The position numbers and the translations under genes are program-made. The notes under the pieces were generated by a model, which had not been told where the DNA came from, searched no databases, and saw nothing but the letters and a program-made list of their open reading frames with translations. A DNA stretch of 64,000 bases from Sphingomicrobium lutaoense (GTDB lineage Bacteria > Pseudomonadota > Alphaproteobacteria > Sphingomonadales > Sphingomonadaceae). Shown one piece after another: positions 63,110 through 64,000 of this stretch. Position 1 is the stretch's first letter. Every line of letters starts with the position of its first letter. The stretch lies in assembly GCF_014195685.1 (NCBI RefSeq), contig NZ_JACICF010000002.1:394501-458500 (forward strand). Reading direction: 5' to 3'.

Positions 63110-63202
63110 GGAGACGTGGGTGAGTGGCTGAAACCACCGGTTTGCTAAACCGGCGTGCGGCTAATTGTCGTACCGAGGGTTCGAATCCCTCCGTCTCCGC
63201 CA
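63110..63202 (+). tRNA. tRNA-Ser (anticodon GCU), CCA encoded
   Basis: Acceptor arms GGAGACG and CGTCTCC pair fully. The anticodon stem CCGGT/ACCGG encloses loop TTGCTAA, giving anticodon GCU for AGC and AGU codons. A long variable arm, typical of class II tRNA-Ser, lies between the anticodon stem and the T-arm GGGTTCGAATCCC. The gene-encoded CCA ends at 63202. Such tRNA 3' ends are favoured attachment sites for integrative elements, and an integrase gene starts 138 bases downstream. Confidence 0.97.
63177..63202 (+). other. Putative attachment site (3' end of tRNA-Ser)
   Basis: The T-arm and acceptor end of tRNA-Ser would be kept intact as attL if an element integrated here. This is inferred only from the adjoining integrase; the second copy, needed as proof, would lie outside the window. 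Confidence 0.35.
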
Positions 63203-63239
63203 TCCCCCTATTTCTGCGCGTTTCTCAGCGTCCAAGCGT

Positions 63240-63254
63240 TTGATTAATAATCAA
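63240..63254. repeat. Perfect AT-rich palindrome upstream of the integrase gene
   Basis: TTGATTA, a central A, TAATCAA: a 15-base perfect palindrome in otherwise GC-rich DNA, 87 bases before the integrase start. It could be an operator or an excisionase or integrase arm site. Confidence 0.45.
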
Positions 63255-63340
63255 GCTTTTCAGTCGAAAACTGGCCCCAGCCGTTTCTTGCCGTTTCCGT
63301 GCAGCCCGCTTATGCTGTGGGAAACAGTGTGGGAAAGGCC

Positions 63341-64000
63341 ATGGGCAAGCTCACCGCTACTGCAGTCAAGGCCGCGAAAGAACGCGGGCGATACGGGGAC
63401 GGCGATGGCCTCTACTTGGTCGTCGGCAACGGTGGTGCGAAAAGCTGGGTAGTGCGAATCCAGAAGGACGGTCGCCGCAGGGACATTGGACTCGGTAGCG
63501 CCGCGAAGGTGCCATTGAGGTTGGCGCGCGAACGTGCGGTTTCGGTGCGCACCCAAGTTGAGATGGGCATAGATCCCATTGCCGAGCGCCAGAGGGCGGC
63601 TGGCGTTCCCACATTCAAGGAAGCGGCAAAGCTGGTCCATGCTGAGCATGCTCCGAGCTGGCGCAATCCCAAACATCGCGCACAATGGCTCTCCAGCCTA
63701 GAGGCCTATGTCTTTCCGGCATTCGGCGATCGATCAGTCTCTCAAGTCGAGGCAGCGGACATACGGGACGCGCTGGCGGCAATTTGGCTCGATAAGCCCG
63801 AGACTGCCCGTCGCCTGCGACAGCGCGTGCGTACGGTGATCGATTGGGCCGTGGCGAAGGGTTACCGCGACGGGCCTTTGGCAATGGCAGTTATCGACAA
63901 GGCACTCCCGCGACAGCGCGCCCGCGTGCAGCACCACAAGGCGCTTCCCTACAGCGAACTGCCGGAGTTTTCCGTAGCCGTAAAAAAGAAGGAGACTATC
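63341..64000 (+). CDS. Tyrosine site-specific integrase, P4 type, C-terminus cut by window edge
   Basis: The first 220 codons of an integrase. Residues 1-85 match the DUF4102 arm-binding domain (GRYGDGDGLYLVVGNGGAKS, then IGLGSAAKVPLRLARERA). Residues 95-190 match the SAM-like core-binding domain, beginning with TFKEAAKLVHAEHAPSW. The catalytic domain with its tyrosine would lie beyond the edge. Codon choice is looser at the third position than in the rest of the window, as expected for acquired DNA. Its place next to tRNA-Ser marks the left end of a probable genomic island. ATG 63341 has GGGAAAGG upstream. Confidence 0.93.
   Translation, partial: MGKLTATAVKAAKERGRYGDGDGLYLVVGNGGAKSWVVRIQKDGRRRDIGLGSAAKVPLRLARERAVSVRTQVEMGIDPIAERQRAAGVPTFKEAAKLVHAEHAPSWRNPKHRAQWLSSLEAYVFPAFGDRSVSQVEAADIRDALAAIWLDKPETARRLRQRVRTVIDWAVAKGYRDGPLAMAVIDKALPRQRARVQHHKALPYSELPEFSVAVKKKETI

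Follow-up and report, generated by a model that had tools for sequence, protein, structure and literature searches.

A compact island at tRNA-Ser in Sphingomicrobium lutaoense with a predicted HUH Rep and truncated rep copies among its cargo genes

A serine tRNA gene followed closely by an integrase gene stands at the right edge of the 64,000-nucleotide stretch of the Sphingomicrobium lutaoense genome that we analysed (the window; G000:C2:394501-458500, where G000 is the genome and C1 and C2 are its contigs). This arrangement raises the question of whether a genomic island begins here and, if so, where it ends, how it moves and what it carries. The preliminary description of this DNA had proposed the left end of an island at this point. 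Our analysis bears this out and, with a probable right end at C1:815-828, extends the single edge to a delimited mobile element that belongs to a sphingomonad island family.

The preliminary description had named a tRNA-Ser(GCU) gene with a P4-type integrase reading away from it within 140 bases, and both calls hold. ARAGORN finds a sole tRNA in the window, tRNA-Ser(GCT), whose end is separated by 138 bp from the integrase ATG; an in-frame GTG at 63299 is a possible alternative start. The reading frame stays open to the window end and the whole gene (int; G000:C2:457841-458989) is intact, encoding 382 aa. The product matches the Pfam families Arm-DNA-bind_3 (2.9e-20), Phage_int_M (2.1e-26) and Phage_integrase (8.6e-17), on which we base the assignment to the P4 type, and by eye it contains an R, an HxxR and a Y that we take to be the catalytic residues. 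Codon usage less biased toward GC had also been claimed for int. The direction of this difference stands and its strength does not: int has a GC3 of 0.650, and 27 long window ORFs average 0.745 (SD 0.085, minimum 0.588). These values, like the starts of the int and winged-helix genes, come from a simple gene caller by which known genes, among them the DUF885-like gene, were missed. Two direct repeats between the tRNA and int are proposed as arm-type sites for the integrase (Table 1).

We then located a probable opposite end of the island through its repeated core. The last 14 nt of the tRNA gene (attL core) have a single other exact copy in the genome, on contig C1 (attR core), and about 0.015 exact copies would be expected by chance (4.2 Mb, both strands, equal base use). 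With up to one mismatch, the 14-nt pattern has three matches in the genome, the third at C2:411206, versus two for the reversed pattern, a less clean control. The 26-nt direct repeat of 63177-63202 for which the preliminary description had called is not present as such: a genome search with a 33-nt pattern containing these positions, allowing up to three mismatches, matched this and two other tRNA-Ser genes and nothing else. Its last 14 nt do recur, and the expectation that the tRNA 3' end would be repeated no more than about 200 kb away is borne out at about 9.8 kb plus an assembly gap, provided that the two contigs join. The C1 copy is convincing as attR because its flank has the anatomy of the attR sites of related elements. 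GCGGA stands directly ahead of the core at C1:815, and about 70 bp upstream lies a TGTGGG repeat pair, TGTGGGCAAAAATGTGGGAAAG, similar to the TGTGGGAAA repeats beside the tRNA. Inspected by eye, the nine related attR sites all have a GTGG-type repeat pair ahead of the core, and five of them have GCGGA immediately before it, with CGGA in a sixth.

Most likely, the island spans the DNA from the tRNA gene to C1:828, about 9.8 kb plus the gap, which falls inside an adhesin gene. On C1, an adhesin ORF is left open by the contig edge, and the attR core lies 108 bp past its 5' end. Judged by this probable right end, the island would be small, about 10 kb. Contig C2 ends 8.1 kb to the right of the window, and we infer that its end joins the start of C1, on which the colinearity of the two att copies depends. 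Comparison of the contig ends found no overlap between the end of C2 and the start of C1, and synteny with congeners gave no confirmation of the join; the TerC gene beside attR has a close relative in just 2 of 11 congeners searched, and the thiolase gene adjoining the tRNA in G018 has its best G000 match about 100 kb to the left. If C2 instead formed a circle of its own, attL and attR would belong to different replicons.

Both contigs start and finish in adhesin genes, and both assembly breaks fall in trimeric autotransporter adhesin genes. The last 207 bases of C2 are 98% identical to the end of C1 (C2:466429-466635, C1:1612259-1612464), as are 199 bases near the contig starts (C2:1-199, C1:115-313), and the island and chromosomal adhesins may have exchanged sequence. 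Gene order to the right of tRNA-Ser(GCU) varies between close relatives (L076 2857-8359 versus L068). A second, tandem element to the right of attR was considered and rejected: the similarity of this sequence to element left ends, in the top 0.9% of the background, is too weak, and there is no third exact core.

Table 1. Features of the island and its ends. Positions without a contig name are those of the window.
Feature	Position	Strand	Basis
tRNA-Ser(GCU), integration target	63110..63202	+	ARAGORN; att pairs in relatives
attL core, 14 nt, tRNA 3' end	63189..63202	+	exact-repeat search, genome
Two direct repeats TGTGGGAAA, proposed arm-type integrase sites	63316..63336	+	
P4-type tyrosine integrase (int), 5' part in window	63341..64000	+	Pfam domains
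AlpA-like excisionase (xis)	G000:C2:459157-459348		HTH_17 1.2e-6
Small winged-helix protein (wHTH)	G000:C2:459581-459883		weak matches only
Predicted HUH Rep (rep)	G000:C2:460003-460677		
DUF885-like protein	G000:C2:460786-462078		E 1e-3, below cut-off
rep 3' fragment, first	G000:C2:462080-462262		
113-aa membrane protein	G000:C2:462422-462763		
rep 3' fragment, second	G000:C2:462783-462983		
Broken Excalibur gene	G000:C2 about 463090-463389		domain named by eye
YadA-like adhesin, 905 aa	G000:C2:463557-466274		
Second adhesin	G000:C2:466388 across gap to C1:707	-	
attR core, 14 nt	G000:C1:815-828	same orientation as attL	sole other exact copy in genome

The predicted backbone of the island consists of int, the AlpA-like excisionase, the winged-helix protein and the HUH-type Rep. 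The cargo, as far as the encoded proteins can be named from sequence, consists of the DUF885-like protein, the 113-aa membrane protein, an Excalibur remnant and trimeric autotransporter adhesins. No transfer or particle genes were recognised in the island. The Excalibur-type gene, which sits between the last rep fragment and the adhesin, has stops and frame changes in its 5' part, and parts of it are similar to DNA of the G029 element close to that element's tRNA end.

Congeners without the insertion, which the preliminary description had suggested comparing, do exist. The tRNA has a strong match in 19 genomes of the genus (E 4.3e-25 or better). Elements with a related integrase occupy the site in five of these (G000, G001, G011, G010 and G006), and the remaining 14 of the 19, counting G005, which is 77% complete, have no related integrase listed at the tRNA; the same gene order in all relatives, named beforehand as a refuting observation, is thus not what they show. 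The integrase beside tRNA-Ser(GCU) in G010 is split over two frames (L083 13396-14588), the picture of a decayed element at the same site.

The int-xis-wHTH-rep order is kept in G001 at tRNA-Ser(GCU) and in G034 at tRNA-Ser(GGA), with genes behind rep that differ from those of G000. Compared with each other, G001 and G034 have unlike genes behind rep and a common right-end module, a PilZ-like gene (by eye) plus a gene for a 350-362-aa protein, at different tRNA genes. The genes behind rep thus appear to be exchanged among related elements. Both elements end in 18-nt repeats made of 14 tRNA nucleotides and four more. A terminator-like stem with a T-run follows attR in G001, and G018, where no related integrase lies at the tRNA, has a similar one after the tRNA. 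Of 11 tRNA-adjacent elements, G000 counted, the fetched stretch also contains the second core in nine, at a distance of 6.1-12.7 kb; none was found in the stretch fetched for G011, and that of G000 lies on C1. In six others, int stands at the far end from the tRNA and an att pair of 14-16 nt is present. Related elements measure 5.5-12.7 kb, and one, in G396, carries an AbiD/Abi_2 abortive-infection gene (L144:6917-7927, minus strand).

Serine tRNA genes are the target of 26 of the 31 related integrases with an identified target (GCU 7, GGA 9, CGA 5, UGA 5), in a set of loci gathered by Rep or integrase searches, a few of them picked with the tRNA in view. The others target Gly (2), Tyr, Asn and Gln (1 each). 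This count covers 37 integrases of at least 300 aa, three short ones having been dropped; a target was assigned if a tRNA lay within 400 bp or a second copy of the core marked it, and six integrases had none in the stretch. By parsimony, the target changed 18 times and integrase placement 4 times on the integrase tree, a weakly resolved topology with SH-aLRT support only and 16 open forks. The close relatives L101 (UGA) and L103 (GCU) target different isoacceptors. Taken together, these assignments indicate that small islands of one family occupy four serine tRNA isoacceptor genes across Sphingomonadales.

The prediction that Rep is an HUH endonuclease comes from conserved residues and from a structure model. 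Residues H122, H124, Y182 and K185 are invariant in an alignment of 11 Rep homologues (11/11). We take H122 and H124 to form the HxH metal motif, and Y182 with K185 to be the catalytic tyrosine and lysine of a YxxK motif; both motifs of HUH endonuclease Reps are thus found in the island Rep across the 11 sequences. The best second-look match of the AlphaFold2 model (pLDDT 76.9) is SIRV1 ORF119, presumably a Rep of an archaeal virus (Z 9.2, rmsd 3.0, 114 aligned). AAV Reps match at Z about 7, and common folds such as AcrB domains come next at Z 5-6. With Foldseek, parvovirus Reps dominate the top rows, all with E-values above 0.001 and with unrelated chains among the matches. By sequence, Rep weakly resembles Pfam PF23343 REP_ORF2-G2P (E 1e-3; 19.8 bits, below the 27.8-bit cut-off) and phrog_3584, annotated as replication initiation (E 0.019), and a sequence search of solved structures gave no match.

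The Rep profile has matches in 53 of 396 Sphingomonadales genomes, and a scan of genome contigs returned 38 loci, by their titles 31 from Sphingomonadales, 3 from other alphaproteobacteria and 4 with vague labels. Single-protein searches found no Rep relatives in 50,697 phage records or in 72,556 plasmid records, and a profile search found none in viral contigs. A replication origin inside the 3' end of rep is not supported: the synonymous-codon ratio there is 1.15-1.31 versus 0.97-1.37 mid-gene (53 distinct rep sequences, 1228 pairs below 70% identity), in a test that a lineage-specific origin would escape.

We consider it very probable that the island is a compact integrative element of about 10 kb, with att recombination by Int and Xis, copying by an HUH Rep and modular cargo behind rep. 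Int and the AlpA/HTH_17-type excisionase would recombine the 14-nt core, leaving the tRNA whole because the core is identical to the tRNA 3' end. The excised circle would probably be copied by rolling circle through the HUH-type Rep. Since no transfer or particle gene is recognised, spread would most likely depend on a helper, by hitchhiking on a phage or a conjugative element.

Which helper this might be separates two more specific readings. The element could be a phage satellite that, as PICMI and PICI do, relies on a helper phage for packaging, its Rep producing rolling-circle concatemers, and we regard this as a serious possibility that falls somewhat short of even chances. Its small size, its combination of an integrase, an AlpA-like protein and a single replication gene, and the AbiD gene carried as cargo by the related element in G396 all fit. 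In the portion of the PICMI study available, PICMI115 has six genes, needs int, alpA and the primase, and forms rolling-circle-like concatemers (PMC10803314). Against this reading, no primase, terminase or capsid-remodelling family was detected among seven element proteins (one scan was run without the adhesin), the phage records and viral contigs searched hold no relative of Rep, and the integration site is tRNA-Ser rather than fis.

The element could instead be integrative and mobilizable, its circle moved by a conjugative element with the HUH protein perhaps doubling as a relaxase, the HUH fold being common to Reps and relaxases. As a precedent, the Sphingobium fuliginis plasmid pPDL2 underwent recombination at a seryl-tRNA attB and, given a helper, could be mobilized, according to the part of its description consulted (PMC3516476). 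We hold this to be unlikely given the absence of a relaxase family among the same seven proteins, again with one scan lacking the adhesin, and of Rep relatives from the plasmid records. Descent from a filamentous or other ssDNA phage, with a decayed provirus keeping Rep alone, would explain the weak likeness to PF23343 and phrog_3584 and is very improbable. A Zot (PF05707) match is absent from G000 and 36 congeners and occurs in 2 of 61 genomes overall, one of them over the cut-off; no coat or morphogenesis family was detected among the proteins scanned, which did not include the adhesin; and many related elements with intact att ends have the same phage-free backbone.

Unexpectedly, two truncated copies of the rep 3' end (tails) lie among the cargo genes of G000, each followed by a new cargo block. 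The first is about 77-80% identical to the island's own rep, in two pieces with an internal deletion at a 14-bp repeat, and the second is 92% identical. A recount over 64 loci, of which 54 have a rep ORF of at least 180 aa and 52 of these are distinct, found tails next to 4 of the 52 distinct full-length reps, leaving 48 without, a frequency biased upwards since L128 (G193) and L129 (G346) were fetched for their partial rep matches; L128 to L133 were all chosen on this ground. Among 30 distinct genome-contig loci not picked for tails, one has them, and 7 of the 30 have less than 3 kb after rep. The six tails (two each in G000 and G377, one each in G193 and G396) are all C-terminal, on the same strand as rep and downstream of it at 0.5 to 2.7 kb. 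The G377 element mirrors the layout of G000, with rep, an HTH-PIN pair, a tail, a 360-aa protein, a tail and more cargo, and the tail-bearing element of G193 sits at tRNA-Tyr and not tRNA-Ser. Two rep pieces without a full rep occur in G346 (L129). The five loci with tails or pieces span three genera, and lone tails occur at G236 and G259.

Searching each locus against its own proteins returned seven extra partial rep copies in 5 of 58 loci, a count that included two duplicate loci and short reps. The same search found extra int pieces in 1 of 38 loci (L111) and no extra xis or wHTH pieces in 17 and 11 loci, respectively, these short genes being harder to detect. The L111 piece (L111:7345-7443), which lies 0.7 kb from int, partially repeats the 33 C-terminal residues of the protein. 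Most partial rep matches in the order-wide scan are C-terminal as well, and this end is the best conserved, so its detection is favoured. On their 3' side, the tails extend, by eye, to the rep stop codon or close to it. Their starts lie about 80 to 320 bp from the rep end with no common site, and the idea of a fixed break point was accordingly rejected.

This layout suggests that cargo grows as modules, each a rep tail with cargo, are stacked one on another. In G000 the two tails would mark the joins between three blocks, namely the DUF885-like gene, the gene for the 113-aa membrane protein, and the Excalibur remnant with the adhesins. These blocks most likely arose by recombination in rep between related elements, with loss of the redundant backbone. 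It is quite possible, if not our first choice, that the rep pieces remain from tandem insertion of several whole elements and subsequent random deletion. For PICMI, multiple integration, gene loss and recombination have been proposed at some loci in the available part of that work (PMC10803314), and the weak similarity to element left ends to the right of attR is a hint in the same direction. Random deletion should, however, leave pieces of the other backbone genes too, and beside the rep tails int is represented by a single piece, xis and wHTH by none, in a comparison of low power for the short genes. That these three genes have left almost no remnants speaks for the insertion of circles rather than for tandem insertion and deletion. 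The rep 3' end could then be an accretion point, at which Rep-driven minicircles of tail plus cargo recombine into the 3' end of the resident rep; each insertion would leave rep whole and displace the old tail downstream. We hold such accretion to be doubtful, because the tails have no common break site and the rep 3' end lacks conservation at the DNA level. If true, it would yield an ordered cargo stack with one rep-tail scar per module, a cassette-like system without an integron integrase. The tails in any case offer a testable route by which small islands may gather cargo such as adhesins.

How does this island compare with described systems? A tRNA island with an integrase is in itself ordinary, and the features of one are found here: an integrase by an intact tRNA, a 14-nt copy of its 3' end at the other end (across the inferred join) and an empty site in relatives. 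The Islander tRNA islands, as far as the excerpt of their description goes, likewise have a tyrosine integrase, a whole tRNA at one end and a displaced 3' fragment at the other (PMC4383910); the present island differs from that account in its very short displaced fragment of 14 nt, its own predicted HUH Rep and the rep tails between modules. Islands of Pseudomonas moved by jumbo phages also pair a tyrosine integrase and cargo with direct-repeat flanks and also do without autonomous-transfer genes, but use a tmRNA site and carry defence cargo, according to the sections available (PMC12595487). The literature covered is partial, and in it we saw no description of an int-AlpA-Rep element that combines an HUH Rep, tRNA-Ser targeting and rep tails.

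Closer parallels come from satellites and from a sphingomonad plasmid. The PICMI of Vibrionaceae, in the part of the study at hand, are likewise compact, with an integrase, an AlpA-type protein, a replication gene and variable cargo. They differ in having a DUF3987/DUF5906 primase, for which seven island proteins scanned gave no match, and in their fis site, integration next to fis being optional in the authors' first model; the island has a predicted HUH Rep and a tRNA-Ser site, and a helper phage is established for PICMI only (PMC10803314). The pPDL2 plasmid, likewise from a sphingomonad, also recombines with a seryl-tRNA gene at the gene's 3' end. Compared by its description, in the portion available, it is unlike the island a 37-kb integrative mobilizable plasmid with a theta-type RepA, iterons, CopG-Int modules and an oriT (PMC3516476). 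PICMI satellites and the seryl-tRNA-targeting pPDL2 are the nearest known kinds, and the element is a real island that belongs with compact, tRNA-targeting, satellite-like or IME-like elements.
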